64,000 nt of DNA from Crossaster papposus (Eukaryota > Echinodermata > Asteroidea > Velatida > Solasteridae): positions 527,782 through 591,781 of the forward strand of contig JBAIAA010000673.1 in the NCBI GenBank assembly GCA_037893245.1, read 5' to 3'. The notes under the pieces are model-generated. The model was not told the origin of the DNA, searched no databases, and was given only the letters and a program-made list of their open reading frames with translations. A program made the translations under genes and the position numbers. Each line of letters begins with the position of its first letter. The first letter of the stretch is position 1. Below are positions 2,161 through 27,852 of the stretch, one piece after another.

Positions 2161-5100
2161 AGCTCGAGTATGCAATGTCGGCCAGCTCGGCGTGACACCG
2201 TGTGTTTCCTAGACACTCGGTCACTGTAGTGGTTTCTCCACCTCTCTTCAGAATCGTCACAGATACCTGCAACGATTCGCAACCATTATTATGCGATTCA
2301 AAATTGTAATCACTCGGTTTTACTCAAATAACCCTAACTCCCCACCCTTTTTTCTTCTTTATACACATAACTTGAATCCTGCAAAATCGTGCAATTCCAA
2401 AGTGTTAAAACTTCATTTAACTTGAATCCTGCATATAACCCAATATTTATTACTGGTGACCACTGCCTGAATCCTGCAAAATCCTGCAGTGGGTTCGTCT
2501 TTGAGCTATAAAGCAGCCAAACATGGAACAAACAGCTGCTAAGTACCCTATTACAAGAAGGCAGATTTGTATTCGAGTCCCTGCGAGTCCCTGCAAGTCC
2601 ATCACAAGTCCTTCAGTCTCAAGTCAAGTCACTAGCTATTCAGATGAACTGGTAACAAAAGCATTCCTTTGTCAATGTTCAACCAGTTACTTGCGACTGG
2701 CTTTATGAAAGGACTTGTGACTGGACTTGTGACTGGACTTGTGACTGGACTTGTGACTGGACTTGTGACTGGACTTGTGACTGGACTTGTGACTGGACTT
2801 GTTACTGGACTTGTGACTGGACTTGTGACTGGACTTGTGACTGGACTTGTGACTGGACTTGTGACTGGACTTGTGACTGGACTTGTGACTGGACTTGTGA
2901 GTGGACTTGTGAGTGGACTTGTGAGTGGACTTGTGAGTGGACTTGTGAGTGGACTTGTGAGTGGACTTGTGACTAGACTTGTGACTGGACTTGTGAAAGG
3001 ACTTGTGAAAGGACTTGTGAAAGGACTTGTGAAAGGACTTGCAGGGAATCGAATACAACACTGCAAAAAGGGTCTGCACACATGACCCTTTGAATGCAAA
3101 CGTTTCCTATCCTTTTTTCAAATCAGTACTCCTCACCAGGCCTGTGGAGGTGACTGTGATCCACCCATTGGCAGGCTTAGTCCCCACCTGGGGCAAGGAA
3201 GGGGTGAAGCGAGACCGCGTGAATTTGTCCAACATGCTGGGAGAGTCAATGTTGTCAACGTTGTAGGAGATCTAAGGAAAAGACGAGAAAAACTGTTTAA
3301 GCCACACCTACTGACAGTGACTCCACTGTACAAGCCACACCTACTGACAGTGACTCCACTGTACAAGCCACACCTACTGACAGTGACTCCACTGTACAAG
3401 CCACACCCACCGACTCCACTGTATAAGCCACACCTACTGACAGTGACCCAACTGTTTAGGCCACACCTACTGACAGTGACCCAACCGTTTAAGCCACACC
3501 TACCGACAGTGACTCCACTGTACAAGCCACACCCACCGACTCCACTGTATAAGCCACACCTACTGACAGTGACCTAACCGTTTAAGCCACACCTACTGAC
3601 AGTGACCCAACTGTTTAGGCCACACCTACTGACAGTGACTCCACTGTACAAGCCACACCCACTGATAGTGACTCCACTGTACAAGCCACACCCACTGACA
3701 GTGACTCCACCGTACAAGCCACACCCACCGACTCTACTGTTTAAGCCACGCCCACTAACCTTGACACCATTGTGCAGCCATCCCAGAGCCACGATTGGCT
3801 CCCCAGCCACGTGGCTCTCGGCGACACTCCCCCAGTCGTTCAGGAGGTGGTGCTTCATCTGCCAGAGCGCAGAGGTCCCCGAGCTGTCACCGGATAAGAG
3901 CTGGGTGCCGCTGGCGTTCCACTGCAGTACCTGGATCAAGTCCTTGTGGACACCAGTTATGCTGCAAGGAAATTGGTACAACTATAGAATGCAAGGCCAC
4001 GTACTCAACTACTCTCGGCTTTATCCTGCAAAATCCTGCAATTTGCAAAGAGGATTTGGCAGGATTTGGGCTAAAGTTACCTGTGCAGTTCCCATGGTCT
4101 GTCGGGATCCACAATGTGTATCTTGGGCCGGTAGATCTCTTTCTCCAAGGCCTTTGTGTTGCTGACTGTACTGAATGCCAGAATATTCCGGCAGGACCAG
4201 CTACAGGCCGTGTCACCGATCAGCTTCTTGGAGCTTTAAGAAAAAAAAATAAAAATTATGTTTTGGGGCAGGTGCATTGGATGACCAGGTGCAAAAGAAT
4301 GTAATTGTTAAAATTGTTTCAACAATCCATGAATAAGGTGTTTCACGGTAATACGTGCCATCTTGTTCACGGGGCAAAAAGAACATGCGTTGCTAAACGC
4401 ACGCACATTTTAGAATGAACGCATGATGACTTGGAAGCACTGAAGTTTTCGATCGACGATGCGTACACAGCAACGCGTGTAAATTTGCCCCGTGAATAAG
4501 ATGGCGCAGATTACCGTGAAACACCTTATTGAAGCTACTAACTAGAAGGTTAATTATTTTTAAACAATCTTAGTATTTCAAATATTTCACACAAAAATTA
4601 CCTTATCACGCAAAAGCAATATTAAAGGTCACAGTTCCTTACTCTAATATCACAAAAAAATGGGCCAAAATGAGAATGGCCTGGTGTTGGCCTGGAAGGA
4701 TATTATTAAGAATGTATTAGAAGTCAACCATTTGACCTTTGAATGAATGAAATACTTCTGGAAGTACGAATGGCTTATGCAGTGATTGACAATAAAATGG
4801 ACTCAGCAACTAAATGTTAGATAGTCACAAATATTAATATTATTGTTAAACAACAAATCCAAAGGTAGAATATAACATTGGTAATTGGCGGGGTTATAGT
4901 AAATATTGTATAACAGACCTGTCCAAAGTTTTACAATCATGGATGCCGAAGTCTCGAAGAAAAAAAGCAAGAAAAACAGCATTCGTTTTCAAGCGACATC
5001 GGGCAGAAGTTCTTCTTGTTGTTCTTTTCACATTATTTACTTTCAAATAAGAAGATATCTCTTAATAATTCGGTAGTAAAAATGTTTGATATCTGCAAAT

Positions 5101-5817: not shown

Positions 5818-8800
5818 ATGGCCGCGGTTTTTTCAGAAACTGGTGCTCAGGTATGCCGAAAATTATTTAGTTTATACTACTAGACAACAATTACTATTTA
5901 CCTAGTCCGAGTTACTCGACTCTAGTCTAGTTATCGCTTTTTTTAACATTTTAGACATCATCTGGCGTAGCGCCAGATGATGTCCAAATGTTAAAAAAGC
6001 GATAAACTAGAGTCCAGTAACTCGGACTACTTTATTATACCAAAGTTATACGAATTGCATCTGAGTGGAATTTAATGTTAAAGGAAATAAAAAAGAATGT
6101 ACAAATCCCGATGCCACTTCAGCGGTTGTGTACAAAATTATGGAGAGTCGACTAAGTATTTTCTAACAAAATGTATGTCTTTTCAACATTTTTGCACTGA
6201 CTGAGTGATGATGGATTTTCAACCGGTAGTGCAAAGAAATGTGCATCGAAACCCCCAAGGCCCTTTTTGCTAGAAACCATCCCCATTCCCCCAATTCTGC
6301 AAAATCCTCCAATTACCACTCCGTAAATATTTGGTTAATCTTTAACACATCAAAATCATCCATTAATTTCAGAATTCTGGCATTTGTTCAGTGGATTTGC
6401 TGGGTAAGACGTGAGCTTGACCCATCGCATCCTCCAAAATCGACCAGCACTTTTTGCCAATCATCTGAAATCCTCCAAAATCCTCCAAATTCCTCCAAAT
6501 TCCTCCAAAACTAACAAGTGGATATTTGGATGATTGAGCTGAGGAGGGTTAGGTTTATAATCTAAACAGACTGGGAAAAAAAATATTTCTCATCATTTTT
6601 TATTTTAGCTTTTTGCTCGTCTGGGGGCCAAACCCTCTTTAGAGGCACTCGACCACCGACTGTTCCCACCACCTCAACACGTTCTCAACCCTGGTAATGC
6701 GGTCGAGCTCTACGGCCCCAGCGGTTGCGGGAAAACCGAGATGCTTCTCCACCTTATCAGCAACTGCATCCTCCCCAAGGCGTGGAGAGGGGCGGAGCTT
6801 GGCGGGCTCGGGGTGGGCGTGATCCTGGTGGACGCGGACTTTCAGTTATCCATGCTGAGGCTGTTTCAGGTTCTTGAAACGAGGTTAGCGGATGCGGTTC
6901 ACAGGAGAAAGGAAGAGAGCGAACGTTTGAAAGAACAGCTGCCTAAATGCAGTAAGTCAGAGAGGTTAGCCTTAAATCCAGCGTGGACTCTAGGATAACA
7001 ACATGGACAAAAATGTCGCCACCGGATGCTGTTTTTTTTCTTTAAACATCATTTCAATGAAGGCCAATCAGTGCAAAAAATGATGAAAAGACGTGAATCT
7101 GTGAATAAGGTTGTTTCACGTTCCACGGCCATCTTGGATTCAGCGCAAAAAGAGGTACCCAACTTACCCGGATGATAGCGTGTTTATATGGGTGTTCCCC
7201 TCTTCCTACATGTAGTAGGCCTACAGAGGGTGCTCTACTGAGCATGCGAAACTGGAACGTGAAACAACCTTATACACTGATGAGCAAAGCCACATGCCCA
7301 TTTATTAACCAGTTTATTAAGTGCATTCCACTGCGCATGCAAAGAATCCTCCAAATGCACTGCAGCTGGAGTACATTGGCATGTGCAACTGTCTTGCAGT
7401 AAACAGCTCTCATAGAGGAAGGGTTCAAAGAGACTTTATTCAATAACTTGCACTGGAGGAGAGTGATGTAAAGATATTTAAATTTAAACTTGAACCCTGA
7501 GACATGTTCAAATTTTTGAAAAAAAATTACCATTCAGTAGTCAGTGAGTTTTGATTACCAACTTATTTTAAGCATCAATACAAAATTTATTGACGCTTTT
7601 GAAAGGGTTTAAATTTATCATCGTTTGTTTAGGGGAACTTGGGTACTTTTAAATTTTTAAATAAAAAGTCGTATCCTTATTGAGTGATTCCCACAATGTT
7701 GCTTCCCAGGTTGTATCGTAAAATTTGGCGTGATCCCTGGCCACACGGAATTCTGGTGTTTATGACTTCTGACTAGCGTCTCGAACAAAGATACTGACAA
7801 TTTTTGAAACCGCCAACATAGCTCAGTTGGTAGAGCGCCGGTCTGGTATTCCGGAGGTCACAGGGTCGAGTCCCGGTTTGCCACTTTCTTTGTTCACTTT
7901 GCAACCTTTTTAATTGAAACAAACAAGTAAAAACTATTAAAGTCTAAATGTATGGCTTTTTTTTCTCTTATTTAACAGAGGATGCCTCAAATCCCAGCCT
8001 GAATACCAACTCGACAACTGAAAACATCCAGGCTAGATCGGATACTTGTGAAATGTGCAAGAAGTTCAAGGTCAGGATCAACGTGAATGACGGAAAAAGC
8101 CACCCACAACCTGGCAAAACTATCTGTATCTGTGATGATCATCAAACGAGTAAACAAACGGGCAAGAAAAGGACAAGAACCGGCGAAATCATTTTGTGCA
8201 ATGGTGACGAGTGTAATAAATCTAGGACTAAGGAGCAGACCGATGGTAGTAACGTAGGAGAAGATGAGACCCTTTTTGCGGAGCCCACGCCGGACCAGAT
8301 TGAGGCGTTCATCAAAACCTGCCTGAACCGGTTCTATCTGGTTAGAGCCAGTGCGAGCAGCGACCAACTCGTCATCACTTTGCATTCTCTGGAATCTCTG
8401 ATCGCCAACCGGCCAGACGTGAGCGTCCTGATGTTGGAGAACATCGCCGCTTTCTATTGGACAGATAGGTTGAATGGGGGCGTGGCTTCAGCCCAGGAGG
8501 TAAATCAGAGGAGAGCGGTGGGCGTCATCAAGCGTCTGATTGGTGAATACCAGCTGGTGCTGGTGGCGACCAAACCGGCGCTCATCCAGCGCAACAGACG
8601 GAGCAACTTTTGGAATGAAGACTCGACCACGCCAACTACGCGTTCAAATATGTCTCACTCGGATTATGAGCATCACGAGTTCATGTGCAGCGCCTGGAAC
8701 AAGTTGATCACCCAAAGGTTTGTCATGAGACGACACGAACACGTAGTTCATGGACAGAATCATGTATCAACTCAGTCGTATTACACGGCGCTTCGAACTC

Positions 8801-8862
8801 TCCCAAATCCAGATCATCTCTGCAGATTTACCATCAGAAATAAGGGTGTTGTTTACCAGTGA
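5818..8862 (+). CDS. XRCC2: DNA repair protein XRCC2 (RAD51 paralogue)
   Basis: RAD51 paralogue of the BCDX2 complex; assists RAD51 loading in homologous recombination. Exons 5818-5850, 6609-6951 and 7979-8862; phases close to give 419 residues. Exon 1 (MAAVFSETGAQ) joins LFARLGAKPSLEALDHRLF, matching human ELLARLEGRSSL. Walker A is GPSGCGKT (residues 47-54, human GPEGTGKT), followed by EMLLHLISNCILPK (human EMLYHLTARCILPK). The Walker B region reads VLMLENIAAFYW (about 275-286) where human has LLILDSLSAFYW, so Asp is replaced by Glu. Then DRLNGG, and RLIGEYQLVLVATK (human KLVNDYRLVLFATT). Human XRCC2 has 280 residues; the excess is an insertion of about 110-120 residues (about 110-230) carrying CEMC, CICDDH and CNGDEC. 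Three coding exons as in vertebrates. Possible AATAAA signals at 8900 and 9307. Confidence 0.95.
5903..6029. repeat. Near-perfect palindrome in XRCC2 intron 1
   Basis: The left arm 5903-5967 begins TAGTCCGAGTTACTCGACTC, the right arm 5971-6029 is its complement, and the loop is only TAG. The arms differ by a 5-nt and a 1-nt indel and a few mismatches. The transcript would fold into a hairpin of roughly 60 bp. May be a tiny foldback element; no family seen elsewhere in the window. Confidence 0.9.
6250..6560. repeat. CCTCCAAA-rich phrase-repeat element ending GGGTTAGG
   Basis: Repeats of AATCCTCCAAAATCCTCC and related phrases at 6290-6320 and 6430-6512, ending GAGGAGGGTTAGGTTTA. Same general build as the AACCCTAAC-capped blocks near 2.3 and 9.45 kb. 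Lies in XRCC2 intron 1. Confidence 0.45.
7104..7273. mobile_element. Foldback MITE in XRCC2 intron 2
   Basis: AATAAGGTTGTTTCACGTTC at the left pairs with the complementary GAACGTGAAACAACCTTAT at the right. Related to the element at 4332-4530. Confidence 0.7.
7310..7435 (-). repeat. Dispersed repeat (ACCCTTCCTCTATGAGAGCT family)
   Basis: On the minus strand this reads GAACCCTTCCTCTATGAGAG, then a stretch rich in CTGCAGT and TGCATG motifs. Similar copies lie at about 14187-14300 and 21459-21535. Origin unknown. Confidence 0.6.
7812..7884 (+). pseudogene. tRNA-like sequence (Thr-type GGT loop)
   Basis: A-box TAGCTCAGTTGGTAGAG, an anticodon arm CCGGTCTGGTATTCCGG with anticodon GGT, and a B-box-like GGGTCGAGTCC. 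However, the 5' stretch GCCAACA does not pair with the 3' TTTGCCA, and the T stem has mismatches. I therefore call it a tRNA pseudogene or tRNA-derived repeat inside XRCC2 intron 2 rather than a working tRNA. Confidence 0.6.
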
Positions 8863-10431: not shown

Positions 10432-13400
10432 CTATACAAACATTGACGAGCATAAGGGACAGCACTGCCGCAGAACTCTCCTCAACCAAGCAGAACCTAG
10501 AAGACAACCACACAAAATGTTTTACCTTGGTACTAAAACAAAATTCACGGCAAGTTAGTGTGTTAAAATGAAAAACAGTCCAATTCAAGGCTCATAACTT
10601 TGCTTAGGGCAATCCCAGCATTACGAACAAAAGTGTAATGTCTGGAAGGAAGGGGTCAGCCTGGTGATTCCTGTGTTCCTCGATCTCTCCTTTAGACTGA
10701 GCTTGGGTTAGATTTTTGGGCCAGGGAACATATAGGTACACACCAGAACCTATGTTCCCCTGATCCCTATGTTCCCCCGTCCCTATGTTCCCCTCTCCCA
10801 GTCCCAAACCCAAAGCCAAACCACAACGATTGGGGAACACAGGGATTAGGCAATTACTGGTAGAGGATCGAAGAACACAGGGATTGGGGAAGGCAGGGAA
10901 CGCAGGGATCGGGGAACGCAGGGATCGGGGAACACAGGGATCGGGCAACACAGGGATCGGGGAACACAGGTATGCACCCATGAAGGATTACTTAAAATCC
11001 TGCAGACAATTTTTTTGCGCTTAACACAATTGTGCACTAGAAGTTTTCTGCTCTTATCTTACCCGATCGATCTTGCGCCGGCAAGGCAATGGTGCTGCAT
11101 TGCACACACTCTCGCGTCTTGGCGGTCGTCTGGCAAAGCTGCAAGCTTAACTGACATCGAGCTGTAGGATTAACAGATAAAAGTCTTCATCAATGGAGTG
11201 CTTAAGTACCTCAATGTAACAAGGGATACATAACGCCTTGAGGGGATTATCTCACACCAATATATTTTGTTGAACTATGCGAAAAAGTTCTTTAATCAGT
11301 TCGTGCTGGAGGACGTATATACATGCAAATTTTTTCCAAGATTCAAAACGGATGACGCATAAACATGCCACGAGCAAGGCCGGAAATGTGCTTCCCGGTA
11401 CCATCGGCCTGAACCCGTCTCGGCTCGGTGATGTTAAAATAATCCCGGCTCGAACAGGTTAAGGAGTAGTTTTTCGGCGATACACAAACGTGTTTACATA
11501 ATCATAATCCTCATTTGGCATGTTTAGTACTCACAGCACTTCAGCGAAATATGTCAACATGGAAAACTTATAGAAAAGAAAACTCACTCCATCTATGTCC
11601 GTTAGGGCAGGCATCAGAAACAATACTGCTAAAAGGAATAAGTACGGGGGGAAATAACAGTTAAGGAAACACAATTTTCTTTATTTCTAAAAGTAATAGA
11701 TTACTGCAATTTTTTTTTTGAAAACAGCAAAGTTTACTAACGGTGAATTAAATATTAAAGTAACTGGGTGGTTCAACTAGACAAATAATGAATAATGAAG
11801 ACATTTTCTAAATTCAGTGGGAAATTGAAGGTGCGAGAATGTTGGCTATTACTTGACTTTGATAAACTTAAAGGGATCGTATACATTTGGTAATTGGAAA
11901 CAGTTGTTTGTTTCAATCCTATATAGTTATAGATATATACTATAAAACTAACCTGTACAAATTTCATTTCAAAATATGGTAGAGATTTTGAGATATTGCC
12001 GAAATCCTGGAGCGGTTTTGTCCACGCAGGAAGCATAATCTGCATTGGAATACACACTCGTCACTGCAGTAACGCTTCTCAAATTCAAATTTTTGAGGAT
12101 AAAAAGTGATATCATTTGCCATAACCGCAGTACTTCGAAGTGAAAAGTTTCTAAAAATGCATTATACTATCCAAAGCTGCTGTACTTCTCACCAAGTAAG
12201 TTTTTATTGCCATAAATGTTTGGAGTAATTACCAAACGTATACGATCCCTTTAATAATGAAAATTTTCCAAGACTGAGGCCAATTTTATAAAGCGTGTTA
12301 AGCACAAACATGTGCTTAGCATGAAAATTCTTCCTTGGCAAAAACAGGGGAACAAACACAATTTGTAGTTGGTGTTTATTGTTTGTGCTTAGTATTGAAG
12401 CTGGTTTTTGCTTAGCAATTAAAATCACATGGTGTTTTGGCTGATAACCTATTTTTACTGAGCAAGAGGTTGCTTTTGTGCTTACATGTTTTATGAAATT
12501 GTAGTCCATTTTTGGCAGTTTCTTTATAAAAATATATAATTAGGATTACATTGACATATTTAGTTCTAACACTTTTTAAAAAAAAAAAAAAATTGTGTAA
12601 AGGACAAATTTGCCTACGAAGAAAATATCAACGTAGAACAATTTTGTTTCCAAAAGGATATTTTCGTCGCACAGGTCACATGTCTCTCTCCTCCCCACTT
12701 CTGTCTCATGAGGATTGGATTTATAAACCCCTGTAACAAGAGTTTTGATTGGCTCATCGCTGCTTTCAATTGAGGTAGACAGCCAATCAGCCATCAGCAA
12801 CAATGCGGTGGTGTGGGAGATTGCTATGCAAAATAAAAAACAACAAAAAAAGGATAGCAATATATTTGTAACATAACAGCACAAAATGCGCGTACAGTCG
12901 CGATATGGATTACCTAGTTTATACCAGTATAAACGACATTTTTCAATGAAAATTCAATTTTGAGATTTTAACATCTTTCTATTTGAAAAAAAAACACTAT
13001 TCTGTCACATCCCAAAGTGTTGAAACTGGACCCGGTAAATGTCAAAAATAATCCCTGCATGAACTGGTTAAATAAATTTAAATAATGACAGAAAAATATT
13101 GACAGAAAAATTGTGAACCTACCGTTGTCGCCAACACTTTTGGCGGGCATATGTTGCCAAGACTGAAGGGAAGCTAAAAAGTGTGATTCTCTTAACTCTC
13201 TTTCAATCTTTTGTATGTCGGACTCCTTTCAAATAAATAAAAAAGGAAGTAGGATCAAAATAATTTTTTTTTAAAGGGATCGTATACATTTGGTAATTAC
13301 TCCAAAAATTAATGGCAATAAAAACTCACTTGGTAAGTACAGCAGCTTTGGATAGTATAATACATTTTTAGAAACTGTTCATGTCGAAGTACTGCGTTTA

Positions 13401-16400
13401 TGGAAAAAGATATCACTTTTTATCCCCCAAAATTTGAATCTGAGAAGCGTTACTGCAGTGACGTTTCTCAGATAGTGTATTTGATCCAATGCAGATTATT
13501 CTTCCTGCGTGGACATAACCGCTCCAGAATTTCGGCAAAATCGCTACCACCTTTTGAAATGAAATTTGTACAGGTTAGTTTTATGGTATATATCTATAAC
13601 TATATAGGATTGAAACAAACAGTGGGTTCAAATTACCAAAGGTATACGATCCCTTTAAAAAGGACAATAGGACTTGGGAGGACAAAATTAGGATAAAAGT
13701 TGGGCTTTTGCGGGCGTTCAGGAGTAGTTTTCGTAGACACTCACCCATATCTCCATCATGAATCCTCATTTGACATGTTCTGTACTCACAACACTTGTGC
13801 TCCATCCTGAACTAAGCTCACCTAAGCCCTTCAGTGACAGTGTGTAACACTGCCATGTGTAAATCTATTCAATGAGATTTCATTTTTCGGAGTTGTGAGA
13901 CAAAAAATAGAAAAAATTGAAATTTTGAAAAGAAAGCAGGAAACGTAGGAGTATAATGTGAGAAAACTAACGCTCGATTCAGACAGGTGTTCCACAGTCA
14001 CGCCGAACCAAATAAGTAAATTGAGTCCGACCTCTGAAACGAATAAGGGCGACAAGGCGCGCTAGGCGGCGAACGATCGACTGCTGGAGTTGTTAGAGCG
14101 ACTCAGGAGCGACTTGATTTCAATTTGGTTCGGCGCGACTGTGGAACGCATGTCTGAACCGAGCGTAAACAAAAGTAGAAGTACTCGACAGCCTGGTGAA
14201 CCCTTCCTCTATGAGAGCTGCTCACTGGAAGGCAGTGGCACATGCCAATGCACTCCAGCTGCAGTGCATTGTAGGATTCTTTGCATGTGCAGTGAGGGGC
14301 ACTTCTGTAGTTAATAAATGGGCATATGGCTTTGCTTATCAGTGTAATATGCACTATGGACATAGCATGGTTCAGTTGACCTGCAGATTCATATGGCATT
14401 CTTTGGAGTGCTTTTGGAGAGACATGTAAAAACGTAGTTTTTTGTTTGTTTGTTTGTTTGTTTGTTTGGTTTTTTGTGTGTTTTTTTTGGGGGGGGACTA
14501 TTGAAGAGTGTTGGAATGTAAACAAGAGCAAGAGTTAACATGTTGACTGCCGGGCATAATTTCACAGGGCACCCCCATTTGCCAAACATTGTACGCATGC
14601 GCATACTTAAAAGGTACATTAAAAAACACCACAAAACAAAAAATGAACATAAACATGTATGTCCTCACCACTGCCAGCAGCGTATTTGTTCCGTTTTTGG
14701 TGATGCCAGTGTATTCAATTTACAATACAAACACCTTTCATTTTCTACGAGTATACTCGTAGTGGCAGAATCCGGTACACCTGTTTAATACTACGACTAT
14801 ACTCGTAGTCGGCAGTCAACATGTTAAGCTCATTTTGTGGTAACAGGTCATGTATAACTAAGTCCCTGCCCGTCATCGTACCATTTGCACTATCTGTTCC
14901 TTTGTCCCATTCTCCCCGTCTGTGTCCTTGCCGGCCCCTCCCCCAGCAGCCTTGCTCGTCTTCATTAACAACAGGAACCTTCTTAGCCTCAGGGTGTGGG
15001 TGTGGGCCCCACCCTGGCTCCGCCCGGCCTCCACGGCCAACTCCCCTTCCGCGACGGACTCTAACTCGCGCGGGAGACGATCGCCGGTGTTTAGGAAGTT
15101 CTGGCGGAGGAATTCGAGCATGTCGGTCTTTTTGCTCAGGTCTTCTGGAAAGAGCAAATATTTCGAAAGAATACACTAATACTGAGCTCATTCAAATCGG
15201 AAGTATACTAAATCCATGCAAATTAAAAACATTAAAAGTTCACAAACTAGTATAGAATGTTTCATCTGTCCCTCTTAAATTTTTTTTTTGGGTTTCACTT
15301 TATTTATCGAAATGAACCTTATCGTTTAATTAACCAGTCTGCGCCAGGATTATTTTAACATCACCGAGCCGACGCGCGGGATTATTTTTAACAAAACTCA
15401 ATCCGAAGCGGGTTCAGGCAGGTCATAGTACCGGGAAGCACACCCACGCATTTCCGGCCTTGCTCGCTGCTGACAGACATTTACGGCCTTGCTCGTGGCA
15501 TGTTTATACGTCATCCGTTTTGAATCTGGGGAAAACTTTGCGTTTAAATACGTCATCCGGCGCGAACTGATGGTTAAACCTAAAACTTTAGAAATTAAAA
15601 GACAAAAATTAACATTTTGACAAAAAATGTTGAGCAAGCTATTACACGTAAATACATAGACTTATATCAACTTTTCCTCGAGCGCGTCACCTCAAACCTA
15701 TTTAACTGTGGAATTTATTGCAGTTCGCTTACTGTGGTAGTCCATTAACTCGGCCGCAACAGTTTCCATTTTGCCCAGCGTGCAGAAATTGAGTAACCGT
15801 GGGGGAACCTTCTTCGAAACTCGATGCCTAAAAATTGGAAAGATAAAACAATTATGGACCAGTTCATTGCAAATCACTTGTATTATTTATTATTATTTTT
15901 TGTTATGAAGCGTACTATATGCACCAGAATTATTCATATCTTTACAAAAAGTAAACTTGTCAACAGAATTTTGTTTGATTACTTTTTGGATGGCTGCAGA
16001 TGTTATATTGCACCTTTAACCCCAAACTACCCCAAGCCTATCAAACTCCAACTGCAGGTTTTGCTAGGTTTTGGCAGGTTTGGTACCAAACATTAGCAAC
16101 TTGTAGTTGGACTTTGTTTGACTCGGTGCCAAAGGCCCAGGGAGACCCTGTTAACAGGGTTGTAGTCGAGTCCCTGCAAGTCCGTTCACAAGTCCTTTTG
16201 TGAAGCCAGTCACAAGTCCTTTCATAAAGGCAGTCACAAGTAACTGGATGAACAATGACAAAGGAATGCCTTTGTCAAAGCTGATTTGAATAGCTTGTGA
16301 TTTAAATTGGAACTGGAGGACTTGTGATGGACTTGCAGGGACTTGCACAAATGTTGGAGTTTGGGGGAATGCACAGGCATTTATTCGTGGGTGAGCTCAC

Positions 16401-19400
16401 TGCTGGACACAGCACAATTCCTAGTTAACTGTAAGTGTGATATGTACACCCTGTGTGTCCCCACTCAAACAGTCCAACACACCCAACCAATGGCCAGACA
16501 TCATGATCACAGCCCTGATCCTGAACACAGAACAATGCATAGACCCATCTGTACCAAGTCAATCAAAACTTCAACAAGTTGGAGTTTGGCAGGTTTAGTA
16601 CTGCTAGGTCCAGTACCAATAATTACTGAACCTGTGTGCAGTTGTTGAAGATTGTTAGGTTTGGTTTGCTTTCTAGTGCGAGAGCCTAGGGGGTTAGGGT
16701 TAACTACTGAACCTGTGTGCAGTTGTTGAAGTTTGTTAGGTTTGGTATGATTTCTAGTGCGAGAGCCTATAGGTTAGGGTTAAGGGTTTAACTTACGTGA
16801 TTGGTTTAGCCACGAAGACACCGTGTGGGGATATAGCAAGTCCAAAATTCTTGCAATTTGCATTGAAGGGCTCCACGACATCCATCTTCATAACTCCATC
16901 TATACATTAAATTAAAAAAAAAAATTATGAGTATTTACATGTTTAAGCCAAAGAGTGTGCACTGTGTTGGGAGAACTTTTTAGGCCAGTTAATTTTTAGG
17001 TTTTCATCATATTGAAAAAAATAATAGTCTTTCAGGAGAATTTATATATTTTTTTTCAATTTAAGTCCTTTACATCATTGGAGAGAAAATTGGTTGTTCT
17101 CACAGACTAGAGGTCAATATGGGAAGTCACTATAAACTAACCAGTGTAGCGGTTCTTGTTGTATTTTTCAAGAAACTTATGTAGCCTAACCCGGTTTTCC
17201 CTTCAGCCTTGTTCAATGATTAAAATAATCCATAAGAACATTGTTGAAGAAAAAACAAACGTTAATAAGTCGGATTCGAACCGCAGACCTTTCGATCTAT
17301 AGCTCTTCTCTTTACCAACTATGCTATTGGCGAGTTGGTTGAGGAAGCCGTTCTTTATAATTCTTTATAGTTCTTTAACGTATATGAGTTGTCATTGCTC
17401 TTTCTCATGAATATACATTCACGCACCACCTAGCTCCTGAAAAAAAATAACGCGAACCGCTACACCGGTTAGTATTAAGTGTCTTCCGTCAATATGACCT
17501 TATGTGAGCTATGACCTTATGTGAGCTATTACCTTAATATGAGCTATGACCTTAATATGAGCTATGACCTTAATATGAGCTATGACCTTAATATGAGCTA
17601 TGACCTTAATATGAGCTATGACCTTAATATGAGCTATGACCTTAATATGAGCTATGACCTTAATATGAGCTATGACCTTAATATGAGCTATGACCTTAAT
17701 ATGAGCTATGACCTTAATATGAGCTATGACCTCACCTGACTTTGTCCAATCAACGATGGTCCGATGAGTTTCGCCGAATGAACTGGTCGTCAGAACCATG
17801 CACCCAGAAACACACGAACCTGCAATGAAATATGGCAAACAACTAAACATGAATGCAGCAATATTAGGCTTAAACTCCAAACTAAATCACTGGAGCTGCT
17901 TAAAGGTAGTATACACCATTGGTAATTGCTTTAATTAGCATGAATGGGTGGATTTTGGGGGTTGTATTTTATAGTAAATATCGTTTACCTGACCTGTTCA
18001 AAGTTTTACAATCATGGATGCCGAGGAAAGCAAGAAAAACGGCATTCATTTTACCCAGGGTTAGGCAGTGACTCTTATGGTTTTTTTGGGTTTTTTTCGC
18101 AATCGCCGTCCGGCAGTCGTGAATTTTTTTAAGCTGAGAACCTAAAGAATTTTTAAAAAGCTAAATCGGTAGTGCTGGTGAGTGCCGGTCCCAACGTTCC
18201 ATGCCAGTACCTCATCGTGAACATAACGTTCCTTGTAGAATCTCCAAGACTTTCTGGAACTGTCCTTACTGGCTTTATTCAGCCATTCCGGTAAGGTCTC
18301 GGGTACAAACTCCGGAATATTCTTTAGAGATTTCGAGAAAGAAAAGCCTCGATCGAAGAAACAAATGCAACAATCATCATGTAAGGCCATGTCCGAAACG
18401 AGTGTCTAGAGCTACGGTCTACATCTACGTCTACGTAGGCGCTAAGGCAAATGGAATTCGGACAGGGCTACGGTAGAGCCTACGGCTAGTTATTGCGCTC
18501 CCAAGCGATGCTTGAATTAGTGTTTGCAAAATTACGATGTAAGAATTTACAACAATTATCGTCTGCTAGATGTTACGCAATGTTTGTTTACAGCCAGTCG
18601 GAATACCTGATGATATTGACGTATTTGTCGATCTGTTAGTTTCAACTCAATGCACTATCATTGAAAAATAAACGAAATTTTGCTCCAAAATTAACGTTAG
18701 TGCTACCGCCATTTTGTTTTGCCTGAGCTAGACAACTTCTTTTATGGCTAGATTGTTGTGATGTTGTAGCCGTAGCTGTAGCTCTAGACAGCATTTCGGA
18801 CAGCGCTACAAAATGGCCGCCGTAGACAATAGACCTAGCCGTAGCTCTAGACACCCGTTTCGGACACAGCCTTAGAGGGTGCAATCGGTCTATTGATCGC
18901 TTACTTGGCGGCCGCCACTTAACTTGTCCCAACGGCCACTTACCATCTGGTGGTACGGGATTCTTGCCAGAGTTGTGGGCTGAACGGACCACCGTCATGC
19001 TGCAAAGGTCCACAAGGAACACCATGAGAAACAGACCTTTAGTCACGACAAGCGTGGCAACGCTCGACAATTCCTGAACGGGAAAACAAATATTTGTTCT
19101 GAAAAAACTCATAACACGCGAAATGCTCATGCTCTTACATGAAACAATCGGATATCTGTCGCTTACAAAAGCTTCAAAACAATGCTGCACGCATCACACT
19201 CACACAACCTAAACATTGTTATGCATCACCACTTCTTTGACAATTACACTAGCTACCTGTTCGAAAACGCATCATCTTCAAAACGGCTGTGAATATGTAC
19301 AAGGCACCATCAGGCACGCATCCACAATACATAATATATTCACTTGACCTCAGTATGCCCAACCGACGTGGTCTCCGCTCGGAGCATAACTTAAACGCAC

Positions 19401-22400
19401 ATTCAAACATGCAGGTGATAAGGCTTTCTCTGTGGCTGGACCCAGATGCTGGAACTCAATACCTCTCAACATTCGTCATTGTAACTCTGTTCACCAGTTT
19501 AAACGTAAACTCAAATCATATCTGTTTTCATCCTAGGTTTGCTCTCATCCTTCATTTTGCAATTTCATCATTTTTTGTTTACGTGGAGTTGTTCTCAAAC
19601 GCATTGAAACCTTTGGAAAAATGCGCTTTATAAATGCCATTATTATTATTATTATTATTATTATTACGACAGAGGATCGAAACACAACAGAAAACAAAGG
19701 TCTCCTTAGAATCCTCGAAAGGCATATTTTTTTTCTTCAAATTTGTCCTTGATCGTTCGGGTAAGCATTAGATTATTAGGGTTAGGTTACAGTACAAAAA
19801 CATTACCATGCTTCATTAGCATTCATGCATGGACAGTCCAAGTGAAAATGAGACAATACATAAAATTCGTTGCCATCATGTAATAATTGTTGGTGTATAG
19901 ATGATGTGCCTCTGTTTACATCTGTATTCAAATGTGCCCGTCAATATGCGCACGAATCATGTTTTACATAAATTTGGTTAAGAGATGACATCAGAGGTCA
20001 CATAATTCAAAGGCGATCTGACCTGCGACGTCAGTCTTTAAGCAAATTTTATGTAAAACATGATGGGTGCGCATCACTGCCGGGCACATTTGAATACAGA
20101 TGTAAACACGTGACGTCAGAGGGCACATCGTCTATATTGTTGTATTTTTGTCACCTTTTTAATTTAATTCTGTAGTTTGTATTCAATTTAAATGTTTTAG
20201 GGCTTATGTTTTATTGACAGGAAATTTAACCAAATCTTGTTTTACTGTTTTAAAGGTAAGAAACACCATTGGTAATTGCTTGAATTATCATGAATGGGTG
20301 GATTTGAGAGGTTGTATTTTATAGTAAATATCGTTTAACTGACCTGTCCGAAGTTTGACAATCATGGATGCCAAGAAAATCACAAAAAACAGCGTTTGTT
20401 TTCAACTGGCGTCGGGCAGTTATTCTTAGGTTATTATTGGGGTTTTTTTCGCGATCGTCGTCCGGTTTTATAAAATTATATTTTCTTGAATAATTACAGG
20501 ATATCTAGCGCAATCATTTTGCTGGATGCCTACAATCATTATTTACTTTCAAATAAGTAAGATATTTCTTAATTATTCGGTAGGAAATATTTTCGATATC
20601 TGCAAATGGTGTATCTAAATATAAATTCTTATAGCTTTTATGGATACATGTACTATGTAATTTTGACTGATTATACATAGGAGATCATATCTACTCGTGT
20701 AATTTCTTCTTTACATGACGAATAAAATGGATCTTGAATCTTGGAGACGATAGTTACCTCTTTGTGGGCGGCCTGGGTCCACGCCAACTGACAAACTGAA
20801 ATCAGGTCCCTTTCAGCCCAGACGTCCAGACGTTTGGCAAACGTCGGTAACGTTGTTTGATCGTCGTCCCGAATGCTCCATATTGATACACGGCCCTGCG
20901 TATCACCAACTGCGAGCCACGCTGCGACCAGATATAACGACAATTAGAAATGTAGATTGGACAATGCAACTGGCTTTTCCACAAAGTTGTTTGATAGTTG
21001 TGACCCGCTCTGCAAAAATGAGTCTGATGTCGCATAATACATTTTCACGTAAAGGGCTGTTTATTGTCTAAGAATTTTCTTTCAACAAATCATTGTTTAG
21101 TTTTAAGGAATTTTGAATTCTACAACACCTATTGTTGGAAAAGGTTGTTTTGATCCCTAAAGTAGATTTAATCAAGGTTTTTGTCATCCTCTAACCATAG
21201 CATCTAATGAAGCACTAAAAATATAAATTTTCATTTCTGTTCAAAGACATTTTTTTAATAACTGAGAAAAAAAGCAAATTTTAAACAATCTTAAAAGACC
21301 AATGCATACACTACAGAGTCGTGCCATATATCAAATGAAAGCTTATTTCCTGCTCTTTCTGACCAACTGTAAAATTGAAAAACAAAATTGGGGTCACAAT
21401 TTTTAAAGATAGACCAAACAAGGTATTTCACACCAAAATACTCAAAAACACTTTAACCCTTCCTCTAGGAGAGCTGTTTACTGCATGTTAGTGGTACATG
21501 CCAATGCACTTCAGATTTACTGCAATAGAGGATTGAACACAGACATTGTTTTTGGATGAATATTGAAGTGTGTTAACCCTAACCCTCCAGGGTATTTTGG
21601 CTAGAAACCTTGCCAGACGCATCAGATTGCATACTTTGTCACATTGACTTGTGTGCAGAGTGCAGCAAGGTCAAGCAGTCACCACAGATGCACTGTCCTG
21701 GGTCTGGCAGGGTTAGGGTTAATTAAGGAAACAATAATTAACCCATGGAACACTACTTTTCAAGAGGAAGTAACTTGTGATAATGTGCCTTGCCCAAGGA
21801 CACAAGCACTACAACCCCACTGGCCGGAACTTCTCTTGATTACTATGGGTGCATTCGAGTAGCTCAGATCACCTTGACTCAACTCAGTTAAAGACGGTCG
21901 GTTTATTAGCCACGAGAGTTATGCCAAACGAACGCTCAAACGCATGCCATTACAATCTTCACGGGATGTTCGTAGCCGCGGCCGTAGCCATTGACAAAAC
22001 GCCCTTTTCGGTCTGAGGCTTACCATCAAATTTACTGTATTTCCATTAAACACAAACAAGTAATAAACAACTTCAGACTAGAATAACAGTTAAATAAAGT
22101 CGCAAAAGACTGTAGCCTCCAAATACCATTTTGGATCGAATTTGAATGCCAAACTGGATTTTCCTTTAATGATTAAACCTTTACCTTTTGTGGATTGGCC
22201 GGTAGTCTGCAGAGGTGGTTCCCTGTACCATGCAAGAGACACTGGCCACTGGTACCCACTATCAAATACACTGTAGATACTGAGGTCATCCCTGAACCCA
22301 AGCCAAAAATACAGCATTAAATTACACATTTAACTTATGTTGCTCAACCATTTTCTAGCCTTACAAATGGTTCCTGTTAATATTATATCGATAAATCGGT

Positions 22401-25400
22401 GAAAAACAAATTGAAATAAAGAAAAAAATAGTATTTTTTTTGGTCAGTAGAAAGACTTGTCTATCTCAAAATTTAAGAATGTGTTCCCCTTAAACAGTTC
22501 GCGCCAGAATTATTTCAATATCAGCCGAGGCGCGGGATTATTTTTAACGAAACTCGATCCGAGGCGGGTTCAGGCCGATGGTACCGGGATGCACACCGCC
22601 ACATTTCCGGCCTTGCTTGCGCTGCTGACAGACATTTCCGTCTTTGCTCGTGACGTGTTTATGCGTCATCCGTTTCGAATCTAGGGAAACCTTTATATAC
22701 GTCCTCCGGCGCGATCTGGTTAAACAAATATAATAGCTTATAGTCAGGCATATTGGTGGCACAATATGATAGAACTGTTCACTTTATGATAAAGGCATGA
22801 CATTTGGAACACAGTCAGAGTATGTCATGAGAAAGATATTTGGCTGTAGGGCGATTGCAAATTTGTCATTTGAACAAATCTAGATTTAGAATAACATCCA
22901 ACTGCTTCAGAGTCTGTGGTCACCCAACGCAGCAGAATCCATCTCTGGCATTGTTCAATGAGGAACTAGCTCTCAATAGTCTTAGACTGTGGTGTTAACA
23001 GCTGAATGCATCAAAGTGCACCAGACGTTTTTTGTTCCTGATGTGCTGTGCTACATCTGGCAGAATTATAGGTTAAAATTCCATGCTTTTATCATTTATT
23101 TGAACAATTTTTCACCAATCTGCTTGACTATAACAGCGAAGACATTGTAAAAAAAAGGCTTGCCCTCAAATCAACCGTCTTAAAATATTCAGGTACTCAC
23201 TCACTCTCCAGGTGTAATGGCAGCTTCCATATCACAACGTGTCCGCTTTTCATCGCGACAGCCAACAATCTGTACGATTCCTTGTCAAGTTCCCAAGCTT
23301 CATCGTGTGAAACACCATCCGCCTGGTTTAATAAGGCTGGTGCAGGTCTGAAAGTACCTGACCAATCCAGAGCTATTAAAAGAGAAACAAAATTGAAAGT
23401 TAAAAAGTAAAGTAGACTATTTGTCGTTCATTATTATTATTATTAATTTTTATTTCTGCTAATGAAACCAAGGATCCCTCAAAAGCGCTCTAGGCACTGT
23501 AGCTCGTAAGCCTGAAAAAACCTGTAGAGAGAAGACAATGAGAAGAAGGTACAGTTTTAGAGGTGGGCGGAAAACCCCAGAAGAATTTCCTGGAGAAAAC
23601 CCATCGAGTCAAGCAGGGACTGAAAACCCAATTCACATATTGGCCCAGGCCAGATTCAAACCCGGGTCACAGCAGTGGAAGGCGAGGAAAGAACCACTTC
23701 GCCAACCTGACTCCCGACCTGACTCAACCTGACTCATCCTGACTTAACTAAAGTTAGCACAGCTCTTACTTTCCTCACCTTCCACCGCTGTGGCCCGGGT
23801 TCGATTCCCGGCCTGGTCCACATGTAGATTGGATTTTCAGTCCCTGCCTGATTACGTGGGTTTTTCCCTGGAAAATCCCTCAGGGGTTTTTCTCCCACCT
23901 CTAAGACTGTAATTTCTTCTCTCTACAGGTTTCCTCAGGCTTGCGGGCTTGCCAATGAAGAATTTTAAATTGCGAGCGCTGTCACACCCTAAATCGACGC
24001 ACGGATGTGCTTCGCGTCAAGGCTTCCACATAACCACTTTCCGTTACCGTGCGTCTATGCAAATTGACACTTGGGGGAAAACTCCTGCACGGACTTTACA
24101 CTCACTGACGGCAGCTAGCATGTAGACACGATGCTTGAATTCCACACACCGAGCCTCCAGCGAGGGTTCGGCCGGAAGATCTGGGCGTGGCTCCTCATTG
24201 ACGTGAGCATATCTTCTTTGGGAGAGGAGCTTACTGAGGAGGAGGGAGAGGTCTACAATCTGTAACAAAATCATGTGATGAGTATTTATAATTATAAGAT
24301 GAGTATTTATAAAGTGCATATGTGACCCGCTCCATCGAAATCAGGATTAAGTCGCAAAAAGACATTTGGAGATATGCACATGGTGAGAAAGGGAATTTCA
24401 TAAGCTTTCTAATGATACCCATCACAAGTGTGTAACTGTTTAGGTTAACAAGTTATGGTCTGATGAAGATGACAGGTGTATATTTAGTTGCCGAATCCAC
24501 ATTCCGAGAAAAACAGCTTTGAAATAAACAAAATTTACCAAAATCATACGGACAGCGCACACAAATCCTCTTTATTTTTATCTTTATTGATCGTTTTTAC
24601 ATACAATACATTAATGACAATAATCAGTGATAACTATACTTCATAAAAATACAATGTTCCGAAAATCGACTTGGTCACGATTTTCACCCATGCGTTCACT
24701 TCAAGGGCCAATTGCGTAAAACGGCCTCAGCGACTTATTCCTGATTACGATGGAGCGGGTCACATATGTCCACGGATATCGATGCTCAAGGCACGACACA
24801 ATTATTACCCTGTTCATCAGGCCCTTGGCCATGCGGCCATGCTTGACCTCGACACTCACAAAGACCCTGGGTAGAGAGAGGCAATTGTAGTTAAGTGTCT
24901 TGCCCAAGGGCACAAACCACCCTGTTTCTGGCAGGGTTCATATGAGTTGAACACCGTAACCACTGGGCCATGGCATTCTACTGGGTAAACCATAAAGTCA
25001 ACAAAAAATATTTAGGTTCGATAAAAGCCCCGTCTTAATTTGCTGCAATTCCATCCACGATTAACCCTAACTACCCCAAACCCATCAAACTCCAACTGCA
25101 GCTTTTGCTAGGTTTTGGCAGGTTTGGTACCAAACCGTAACAACTTGTTGTTAGACTTTGTTTGACTCAGTACCAAAGGCCCAGGGAGACCCTGTTGAAT
25201 TATGTGAGGTTCAGGACAGAAAGGCATGAGACTTGTCAAAATGTTAGAAATTTTGAGAATGCACAGGCATTTATACGTGAGTGACCCACATTGTCATGGC
25301 ACAGTTCCTGGTCAACTTTAAGTGTATGTACACTTACACCTTGTATGTGTGTCCCCACTAAAACACATAATACCACTGGCCAGTTATCACTGTTCCAAGT

Positions 25401-27852
25401 CAATAAAACTTCAACTGTTGGAGTTTGGCAGGTTTAGTACTGTTAGGTTCAGTACAGTGTACCAAAAATTACTGAACATGTGTGAGCTGTTGAAGTTTGT
25501 TAGGTTTGGTATGCTTCCTAGTGCGAGAGCCTAGGGGGTTAGTATAACAGGTTCCTCTTGGGGTAAACTGTCTTGCCTAGGAACACATTTTAGTTAGTCT
25601 GGAACAGCGACCCACTGAACAGGGCCAGGCAATGTCAAACCGTATTCTAAGAGCTTATACAGGATGCCACAGTACACACCATTCAATTGACGTACTGGTC
25701 GGTTTCACAAGTGTGTCCTCGAGCAAGACGTATTACCGTAATCATTTTTTCGCCCCTATAGTATACTTGCCATGGTCATGTTGCCTTTCTTCGACGTCCT
25801 TTTGTAAACGTTGAGTCGGTGGTCCAATGCGAGACATGCTAAAATCACACTAATTGAAGAGAAGAAAAAAAATCAAAAATCAAAAATGTTAAGAGCCCCT
25901 ATTACATAATTTTCAAAGTGTTTCCCAGCACCCAGTATATGGGTGGTAATCTGAGTATTGTGCAGATTTATGCGACCCTGGGCCCCAGCCAATCAGAGTC
26001 CACCGTGATGTCATTTGGTGCAGAAATCTGGACAAAGCTGCCGATTGGCCAATTTGGCTGCCGTGTTTTTGTAACATAGCAATGGGTAACGGAAGACGCA
26101 ATATTACGCTGAAAATTGCCTGCTGAATGGACATAATCTTGATGCCAAGATGTGGTCTTGGGAGCAATTATAGAATGCAGCTCCCACTCACAACTCTCAA
26201 CTTTATTTACCCTAGGACATTGAATGGACTGACCCTAACCCTAACCCTAACCCTGTATACCCCAATACCCATAGAATACAGGGCCACTCCATTCTATGTC
26301 ATAGGGTAAATAAAGTCGAGAGTTGTGAGTGGGCCCTGCTGGGCCCTGCATTCTATAGTTAAGCCGTGGTCTTGTTTGCACAATTAATCACCTAATCTGC
26401 TCGCACATCATAGACGCTCGTCCTAGTGTGTAATCATAAGAGGTACCTGTCAAACTGCCGGGTACCAGCCAGCGACCATCGGACCAGCTTGAGACCATTC
26501 CTGCTACTGATAGCTCGGGCAAAATTAATGTCTTCACAACTGTCGCTGGTTGGCGGGGAGAGGGTCTGGTCTGTCAAAATGGATCTCATCAGACCTGTGC
26601 CAGAAGGTGATTCAAAGCTGTCACAGATTGGTGACTTCACGTACACAATTTAATGACAATAATGTGACAATTTAATGTGACAATAATACATGTTTATGTG
26701 ACAATGAAATGTGACAATAAAATGTGACAATGACATATAATATATTATGTGACATACAACTATGGCACATGACTATGACAATGAATGTATGACTATAGCA
26801 ATGGTATATTACTACGACATATGACTATGACAATGTTATGTGACATATGACTGTTGCACGATTATGACAAGGACGTATGACAATATCACAATAATGTGAC
26901 ATGTGACAATTGTGACAAATGGGACATATGACAATTACGACATTATGTGACATATGACAATTGTGACAAATGTGACAAATGTGACACGTCACAAATGTGA
27001 CAATTTTGACATGTGACAATTGTGACATGACAGTTATGATGTGACATGTGACAACTGTGAAATTCGACAATTGTGACAAATGTAACATGTATACGAGTCT
27101 CAACAGACTTACGGTTTTGTTGCTCTTCATCGTCCAATGTCTCAAAATCAATGCCGACATCAAACTCTAATATTTCAGCATGTGATTTGATGATGGACTT
27201 GTTGAAGACAAAGTTGCCGTTCTGTTTAGATGGATCACACTGCAGAGACTATTACCCCAAAACAATAAAAAACAATTTGTCAATGTTATGATAATGAATA
27301 TTAATTGGTCACGTTAATTCACTGCCACTGTGTAGTTGTGTGGTTTGTGGCTCAGTGTGCACAACTGAACTGAACCTAGTCCTAGAGTAGAGCGCGCAAA
27401 TAGCGCAATAAAAAAACAACTTTTAGTTTTAACAATGTTTAAAGACCTGCCAATGCAAAAAATCTAATATAATTATGTGACCCATCACATCAAAATCAGC
27501 AGCAAGTCGGAAATTGACTTTTTGAGATATTTACATGGTAATATTGACATTTTATAAGATTTGTAATGATACCCTGCCACTGCACTGGTGACCCAGCAAT
27601 GCCCAGTTGCAGTGGCAGTGGCAGTGCATTGTGCCCACGCGCCAATTCAAATCGCGGTAAACTCTCATCACCGACCCCAAAACAAAGAATTTTCCTAAAC
27701 TAACTGAATCCACACAAACTCACGAAAATCGTGACACATTTTGGAGTAGCAATGGCAATTCTGTTGTCCTCCGACCACGAAATCGCATCACAACTAACCG
27801 GCAGGTTCACGAGATTAATGGGCGCAGCCATCTTTGTTTTAGACCGATCCAT
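10432..27852 (-). CDS. GTF3C4: General transcription factor IIIC subunit 4 (TFIIIC90)
   Basis: Nuclear TFIIIC subunit for Pol III transcription: N-terminal WD40-like propeller, C-terminal zinc fingers. Exons (minus): 27724-27852, 27113-27239, 26466-26594, 25771-25838, 24106-24259, 23201-23372, 22185-22291, 20758-20921, 18944-19073, 17736-17819, 16797-16899, 15733-15827, 14882-15144, 13123-13162 (weak), 12662-12730, 11588-11641, 11063-11161, 10432-10496. Phases close to about 683 residues (human 822). Diagnostic matches: CDAISWSEDNRIAIAT (human LAWSEDHRVSVST), DWSGTF and LLAVAMKSGHVVIWKLPL (human MEWSGI, LLAVLFENGNIAVWQFQL), FGLAISPHGVF (human HGIAVSPCGAY), CDLCDEIIPF and CPNGHRWTRC (human CSLCKEILPF, CSNGHIWLRC), WLRRVLRQCCPLC at the C-terminus (human WIKRLLQSPCPFC). 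Intron 4 is GC-AG and intron 15 is U12-type AT-AC. A start at 27831 (MAAPINLVNLPV) is equally possible. A piece before the zinc finger is probably unrecognised or reduced. Confidence 0.9.
10745..10975. repeat. GGGAACACAGGGATC tandem repeat with inverted half
   Basis: The left part has repeats of CCCTATGTTCCCC, the right part repeats of GGGGAACACAGGGATC, so the two halves are complementary and can fold. Lies in the last intron of GTF3C4. Confidence 0.75.
11292..11462 (-). mobile_element. TTAA-bounded MITE, family C, short form
   Basis: TTAATCAGTTCGTGCTGG at the left and CCGGCTCGAACAGGTTAA at the right; interior CATGCCACGAGCAAGGCCGG. It lacks the internal duplicate block seen in the longer copies. 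Lies in a GTF3C4 intron near the 3' end. Confidence 0.8.
11868..12254. mobile_element. TTAA-bounded MITE, family B, copy 1
   Basis: TTAAAGGGATCGTATACATT at the left, and GTATACGATCCCTTTAA at the right. About 387 bp including both TTAA. An inverted copy with about the same length lies at 13271-13658. Located inside the U12 intron. Confidence 0.85.
12283..12507. mobile_element. Foldback element, family D
   Basis: Left arm GGCCAATTTTATAAAGCGTG then TTAAGCACAAACATGTGCTT; the right arm is its complement, with the interior phrases TTCCTTGGCAAAAACAGG and TACTGAGCAAGAGG. Related copies at 30384-30571, 43299-43528 and 48236-48474. Confidence 0.75.
13271..13658. mobile_element. TTAA-bounded MITE, family B, copy 2
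   Basis: Same ends as the copy at 11868-12254 but interior in opposite orientation. Lies about 1 kb from it, between two GTF3C4 exons, so the two copies form a large inverted repeat. Confidence 0.85.
14187..14300 (+). repeat. Dispersed repeat (ACCCTTCCTCTATGAGAGCT family)
   Basis: Starts GAACCCTTCCTCTATGAGAG, then GGCAGTGGCACATGCCAATG. Copies in XRCC2 intron 2 (minus) and near 21.46 kb. Followed by a (GTTT)n tract at about 14440-14470. Confidence 0.6.
15330..15577 (+). mobile_element. TTAA-bounded MITE, family C, long form
   Basis: TTAACCAGTCTGCGCCAGG at the left, CCGGCGCGAACTGATGGTTAA at the right. Interior GAAACTCGATCCGAGG-like block, then CATTTCCGGCCTTGCTCG twice, separated by CTGCTGACAGA. 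About 248 bp with both TTAA. Confidence 0.85.
16010..16785. repeat. CCCTAAC-capped phrase-repeat element with unexpanded minisatellite
   Basis: Starts TTAACCCCAAACTACCCCAA and ends with GGGGGTTAGGGTTAA (near 16690) and GGTTAGGGTTAAGGG (near 16775). The interior includes TCAAACTCCAACTGCAGGTT and GGAGTTTGGCAGGTTTAGTA. At 16150-16340 it includes AGTCACAAGTCC phrases related to the minisatellite at 2.7-3.0 kb. A close relative lies at 25062-25544 and a fragment at 32403-32560. Ends about 10 nt from a GTF3C4 splice donor. Confidence 0.6.
17143..17475 (-). mobile_element. Inverted-repeat element carrying a tRNA-like segment
   Basis: Ends AAACTAACCAGTGTAGCGGTT and AACCGCTACACCGGTTAGTA are complementary. 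At 17275-17340 the minus strand contains an A-box-like CATAGTTGGTAAAGAG and a perfect B-box GGTTCGAATCC. A second copy, truncated at its right side, lies at 33583-33803. Confidence 0.7.
17507..17733. repeat. 18-bp minisatellite abutting a GTF3C4 splice donor
   Basis: About 12 copies of CTTAATATGAGCTATGAC, almost perfect. The array ends within a few bases of the donor of the exon at 17736-17819, so on the minus strand it starts at the beginning of the intron. Confidence 0.95.
17900..18125 (+). mobile_element. TTAA MITE, family A, 5' part
   Basis: Begins TTAAAGGTAGTATACACCAT with the family interior TATCGTTTACCTGACCTG; the 3' half is lacking. Confidence 0.75.
18388..18873 (-). mobile_element. 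Foldback element, family E
   Basis: Both ends carry the palindromic motif AGGC-TGTGTCCGAAACGGGTG with nearby CTAGAGCTACGG repeats. About 486 bp. A second copy in opposite orientation lies at 36627-37125 and shares nearly all of the interior (ACGTCAATATCATCAGGTAT and complement). Confidence 0.8.
19161..19673 (+). repeat. 3' end of a CR1/L2-like non-LTR retrotransposon
   Basis: Degenerate reading shows LQNNAARITLTQP, then LPVRKRIIFKTAVNMYKA, then an RLRS-type motif, characteristic of the end of non-LTR ORF2. It closes with TGCGCTTTATAAATGCC and an ATT tract (19640-19664). Lies in GTF3C4 intron 8. Confidence 0.75.
20250..20618 (+). mobile_element. TTAA MITE, family A, near full length
   Basis: TTAAAGGTAAGAAACACCAT at the left and GATATCTGCAAATGGTGTAT at the right, with both interior halves present (GTTTAACTGACCTGTCCGAA; GGATATCTAGCGCAATC). 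It defines the roughly 370-bp family length. GTF3C4 intron 8. Confidence 0.8.
21573..21722. repeat. CCCTAAC/GTTAGGG-bounded short element
   Basis: Begins GTTAACCCTAACCCTCCAGG and ends GGCAGGGTTAGGGTTAATTA. Interior has TTGCCAGACGCATCAGATTG. About 150 bp; the smallest member of this class. Confidence 0.55.
22490..22723 (+). mobile_element. TTAA-bounded MITE, family C, long form
   Basis: TTAAACAGTTCGCGCCAG at the left and CCGGCGCGATCTGGTTAA at the right, with the duplicated CATTTCCG-CCTTGCTCG block. Lies in the GTF3C4 intron 22292-23200. Confidence 0.85.
23512..23705 (-). repeat. tRNA-derived SINE-like repeat, copy 1 of an inverted pair
   Basis: On the minus strand: a B-box-like GGGTTTGAATCTGG, then CAGTCCCTGCTTGACTCG, then a GGTTTTCTCCAGGAAATTC tail. 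Faces the copy at 23755-23960. Confidence 0.6.
23755..23960 (+). repeat. tRNA-derived SINE-like repeat, copy 2 of an inverted pair
   Basis: B-box-like GGGTTCGATTCCCGG, TTTTCAGTCCCTGCCTG, GGTTTTTCCCTGGAAAATCC, then TTTCCTCAGGCTTGCGGGCT. Complementary to 23512-23705 with about 50 bp between, so an intronic hairpin is possible. Confidence 0.65.
24318..24768. mobile_element. MITE with CATATGTGACCCGCTCCATCG ends
   Basis: Left end CATATGTGACCCGCTCCATC then AATCAGGATTAAGTCGC; the right end is the complement ending GGAGCGGGTCACATATG. About 450 bp. Related single ends occur near 20995, 27477 and 39262. Confidence 0.75.
24793..24979 (-). repeat. tRNA-derived SINE-like repeat
   Basis: On the minus strand: CCATGGCCCAGTGGTTACGG, TGCCCTTGGGCAAGACACTT, CTACAATTGCCTCTC. 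The same arrangement is on the plus strand at 30103-30377, where the GTAAAGCGCTTTGAGG end is also present. Confidence 0.7.
25062..25544. repeat. CCCTAAC-capped phrase-repeat element, second long copy
   Basis: Starts GATTAACCCTAACTACCCCA; shares long stretches with 16010-16785 (CAAAGGCCCAGGGAGACCCT, GTGCGAGAGCCTAGGGGGTT) but lacks the AGTCACAAGTCC interior. Lies inside the GC-AG intron. Confidence 0.6.
26155..26362. repeat. Foldback repeat with internal CCCTAA tract
   Basis: The left arm TATAGAATGCAGCTCCCACT and following ACAACTCTCAACTTTATTTA pair with the right arm AAATAAAGTCGAGAGTTGTG and GGGCCCTGCATTCTATAG. Between them is a (CCCTAA) tract of about four units at 26230-26253. Confidence 0.75.
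26640..27095. repeat. Degenerate TGTGACA-rich simple-sequence region
   Basis: About 450 bp of irregular repeats of ATGTGACA, TATGACAAT and TTGTGACAAA in GTF3C4 intron 2. Gives spurious reading frames; no exon recognised. Confidence 0.85.

Follow-up and report, generated by a model that had tools for sequence, protein, structure and literature searches.

In the GTF3C4 (TFIIIC90) gene of the starfish Crossaster papposus, the coding region of the C-terminal zinc finger is almost certainly interrupted by a genuine phase-1 U12-type intron with AT-AC ends. The gene lies on the minus strand of the window, the whole stretch of 64,000 nucleotides that was analysed. The motifs, the reading frame, the homologous junction and the stop encountered upon retention are all read directly from the DNA, and their positions are collected in Table 1. 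Most likely the intron is old, its age being presumed, and has simply been inherited, with no particular regulatory function.

Table 1. Features of the GTF3C4 gene and of its AT-AC intron, in the order of transcription (positions are those of the window).
Feature	Position	Strand	Basis
Eight further upstream candidate exons, beta-propeller part	17736..26594 (span)	-	Exon list, similarity
Exon; AG acceptor ends at 16900	16797..16899	-	Frame, human match
Exon	15733..15827	-	Frame, human match
Exon, first part aligned to human	14882..15144	-	Frame, human match
Predicted exon next upstream of 12823-12662	13123..13222	-	Frame and AG/GT borders alone; outside the human-aligned stretches
Exon 5' of the U12-type intron, ends ...CDLCDE + first base of Ile codon	12662..12823	-	Frame, splice sites, human match
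U12-type AT-AC intron, 1020 nt, phase 1	11642..12661	-	Termini, length, uniqueness in the window, rival splice pairs
5' splice site ATATCCTTT	12653..12661	-	9/9 to the U12 AT-AC consensus
In-frame stop if the U12-type intron is retained	12576..12578	-	Translation of the retained form
Inverted-repeat-ended (MITE-like) element inside the U12-type intron	11868..12254	-	Repeat comparison
Branch site TTCCTTAAC; 11661 is the likely branch A	11660..11668	-	9/9 to TTCCTTRAY
Terminal AC of the U12-type intron	11642..11643	-	First AC or AG 3' of the branch motif
Exon 3' of the U12-type intron, 54 nt, rest of Ile codon + IPFSSIVSDACPNGHRW	11588..11641	-	Frame, human match, Pfam
Following exon, RCQLSLQLCQTTAKTRECVQCSTIALPAQDRS	11063..11161	-	Frame, human match
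Last coding exon, SAWLRRVLRQCCPLCSSMFV + stop	10432..10496	-	Frame, human match

The intron opens with ATATCCTTTT and closes with TTCCTTAACTGTTATTTCCCCCCGTAC. On the minus strand, its donor border at 12662 reads ...TGTGACCTGTGCGACGAAA|ATATCCTTTTGG... and its acceptor border, 1020 nt further, ...TTTCCTTAACTGTTATTTCCCCCCGTAC|TTATTCCTTTTAGC... Re-reading of this strand found all coordinates and motif letters given for the intron in the initial annotation to be exact; the wider interval outlined there runs from 11588, where the next exon ends (GGA|GTGAGT), to 12730, a position within the preceding exon, 12823-12662. The last intron base is 19 nt from the branch A, and inspection of the string by eye revealed no earlier AC or AG between the branch motif and the intron end. 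Assignment to the AT-AC subtype follows from the donor, a branch site near the 3' end and an AC end at the very junction demanded by homology. The intron has its donor, branch motif, AC end and phase 1 in common with other members of this subtype, but its branch-to-end distance exceeds the 11-13 nt termed optimal (PMC6717393) and it has acquired a MITE-like element. Minor introns of animals and plants show a phase bias of 1 > 2 > 0, which the phase of the GTF3C4 intron fits (PMC10639083). AT-AC introns are reported to make up 24% of minor introns (PMC8280824), with other estimates at ~22% for human and ~24% for mouse (PMC6717393) and at ~26% in human (PMC10639083).

The probability of a chance occurrence of the motifs was assessed for both strands of the window. 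Both ATATCCTTT and TTCCTTAAC occur exactly once, and these single occurrences are the motifs of the GTF3C4 intron. A strict pair, defined as the two motifs at most 5 kb apart with a matching end 9-21 nt past the branch A, was seen once, against a mean of 0.02 in 199 simulated first-order Markov sequences of 128 kb. RTATCCYY, the looser donor form, was found at 12 sites, of which 12661 alone has, within 5 kb, both a TTCCTTRAY and a matching end; with 0.9 such loose pairs expected per window, the one observed is by itself no evidence. The evidential weight lies in the strict motif match combined with the protein homology.

Joining of the flanks encodes CDLCDE|IIPF...ACPNGHRW, which restores the reading frame and gives the same CX2C...CXNGH spacing as in human GTF3C4. 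Over the splice, CDLCDEIIPFSSIVSDACPNGHRW aligns to human CSLCKEILPFTDRKQAVCSNGHIW (chain 8cli_B) without gaps, which bears out the earlier claim that the Cys spacing after joining equals that of the human protein. Between 16899 and 10432, eight exons together give 313 open codons and a stop. The product matched 8cli_B with a whole-query E of 1.6e-16, the best stretch (query residues 199-310 against human 713-819) reaching an i-Evalue of 2.9e-12; the other two chains matched were colicins at chance level (E 0.28 and 0.3). Pfam assigned zf-TFIIIC (PF12660) to the joined product with 47.9 bits (cut-off 23) and TFIIIC_delta (PF12657) to the upstream exons with 44.6 bits (cut-off 27), and an overlapping query extending further upstream matched human GTF3C4 residues 201-559 (E 1e-12). 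The TFIIIC_delta propeller and the zf-TFIIIC finger, the two parts of GTF3C4 (TFIIIC90), are thus both present and both align with the human protein, whereas residues 102-199 of the starfish product remained unaligned in the 313-codon search. When bacterial and archaeal genome contigs were searched for relatives of the joined finger, 101 pattern matches yielded none, as expected for an animal gene. The identification of the gene as GTF3C4 and of its zinc-finger intron as U12-type with AT-AC ends is supported by the human alignment, Pfam, the motifs and the scan of rival splice pairs described below.

At the 5' end of the gene, the likely first exon, ISWSEDNRIAIATPKCVTIF, lies within the open stretch 28023-27703 and weakly matches human residues 69-89 (2.5 bits). 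A candidate GC-AG intron was observed in GTF3C4 as well (minus strand, 25770-25762), where the exon end ACCATG (25771) is followed by GCAAGTATA.

From known biology, the U11/U12 di-snRNP would pair with the donor and the branch site, and splicing of 12662 to 11641 by the minor spliceosome would bring the CX2C half of the finger to the CXNGH half. Full-length GTF3C4 mRNA would then depend on the minor spliceosome, and removal of the intron would be expected to need CENATAC, the AT-AC helper. In HeLa cells depleted of CENATAC, retention or use of other major sites was reported for 92% of A-type minor introns (PMC8280824); from this result, the same need is predicted for the GTF3C4 intron. In the retained form, translation continues for 28 residues (NILLETKLFYVDIFFVGKFVLYTIFFFF) past CDLCDE and ends at the stop, without the remainder of the zinc finger. 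The retained mRNA would probably decay, since two introns lie downstream of this stop.

The initial annotation had placed a TFIIIC subunit, described as needed for Pol III output including tRNA and U6, under minor-spliceosome control. Of this control, the probable dependence of the full-length mRNA stands, while regulation goes beyond what the DNA displays. TFIIIC is described as serving type 1 and type 2 promoters, those of 5S, tRNA, 7SL and others, which agrees with the proposed need of tRNA output for TFIIIC (PMC12193147). The extension to U6 is not supported: the U6 promoter is of type 3, recognised by SNAPc and without use of TFIIIC (PMC12193147), and a loop through U6 was rejected on this ground. 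The U6 promoter of this animal is presumed to be of the type described. If the U6atac promoter is of type 3 too, a loop through U6atac would fail as well.

Alongside the U12-type assignment, the intron could act as a switch, where slow minor splicing tuned by the state of the cell sets TFIIIC and hence tRNA and 5S output. Basal retention is relatively high among AT-AN minor introns, whose splicing CENATAC promotes (PMC8280824), and retention in GTF3C4 would truncate the finger. The same argument applies, however, to any gene with a minor intron, and whether the effect holds for individual genes has been called into question (PMC8280824), so that such a switch is considered improbable. A second copy of the MITE-like element is located at 13268-13661, in the intron before exon 13222-13123. 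The two copies, of ~390 nt with inverted-repeat ends of 28-31 nt, are 87% alike and have opposite orientations. The copies could pair in the pre-mRNA, placing exons 13222-13123 and 12823-12662 in a loop that also contains the U12 donor. Skipping of just these two exons would not be expected to work, because a major donor would have to be joined to a minor acceptor. It is very improbable that the AT-AC intron forms a tunable TFIIIC brake in this lineage, in which the paired inverted repeats would slow minor splicing and tie the supply of tRNA and 5S to the activity of the minor spliceosome and CENATAC.

The flanking exons might instead be joined by ordinary GT-AG sites nearby, the AT-AC motifs then being due to chance. 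An AG does end at 11629 after a pyrimidine-rich stretch (CTTATTCCTTTTAG), and the GT donors 12672 and 12639 give open in-frame products with AG at 11629 or 11626. Near the junction, GT, GC and AT donors were paired with AG acceptors, and the AT donors also with AC acceptors. Among the 432 pairs scanned, the AT-AC pair included, 26 were open and in frame. Scored against the human finger, the AT-AC pair was the best of these 26 with 78, followed at 61 by the same AT donor with an AC that lies within the branch motif; GT-AG pairs reached 48 at best, with a product that reads NILLETKF instead of IIPFS behind CDLCDE. Joining the AT donor to the AG at 11629, 13 nt on, would shift the frame. With a major-donor frequency matrix suited to a rough ranking only, the GT donor of the best GT-AG pair scored -9.9 and the other -2.0, against 1.2 to 7.4 for 13 other donors of the gene model. 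These 13 (the first exon's donor and the GC donor at 25771 are omitted from the comparison) all begin with GT and agree with the consensus for U12 donors at 1-5/9 positions, against 9/9 for the U12-type donor. Given the scores of 78 and 48 and the poor donors, GT-AG splicing at the zinc-finger junction was rejected as hardly credible.

Several AT-AC introns are removed by the major spliceosome (PMC6717393). The GTF3C4 intron has its terminal dinucleotides in common with these. Such introns have U2-like donors and are not known to carry TATCCTTT, whereas in GTF3C4 both the U12 donor and the branch motif are complete. The idea that the locus is a decayed, non-working copy of GTF3C4, whose intron has no present use, draws on the uneven similarity to the human protein and on exon 13222-13123, which falls in no aligned stretch, but is scarcely tenable given the open eight-exon C-terminal part with its stop, the upstream alignment to human 201-559, the conserved Cys and His residues and the kept frame.

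Elsewhere in the window, a MED16-matching exon was observed on the minus strand at 3766-3981 (best PDB match E 4e-14), adjoining short tandem repeats. The plus strand carries a match to XRCC2 at 6609-6950 (E 6.7e-16) and an open frame of 304 residues at ~7980-8862, which may be the last XRCC2 exon. Between the two lies a tRNA gene or tRNA-derived element (plus strand, 7812-7883; 34.5 bits against an Rfam gathering score of 29), the sole match in an Rfam scan of the window at gathering scores. A long tandem repeat on the minus strand (37965-38692) is open in three frames and reads as a repeated unit of 11 residues.

A search of paper texts returned no report naming GTF3C4 with a minor, U12-type or AT-AC intron; as such gene lists usually stand in supplementary tables, this silence is not evidence of novelty. 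Minor introns constitute ~0.3% of vertebrate introns, and the deep deuterostome branches except tunicates, with the starfish Asterias rubens named among them, are reported to be comparable to vertebrates in their density of minor introns (PMC10639083). The GTF3C4 intron, as an old intron most likely kept by descent, is an ordinary addition to this well-known class. If it is shared with vertebrates, it would add or confirm GTF3C4 as a minor-intron gene and would place defects in minor splicing one step from tRNA and 5S supply; if restricted to this lineage, it would be a data point on intron loss and type change.
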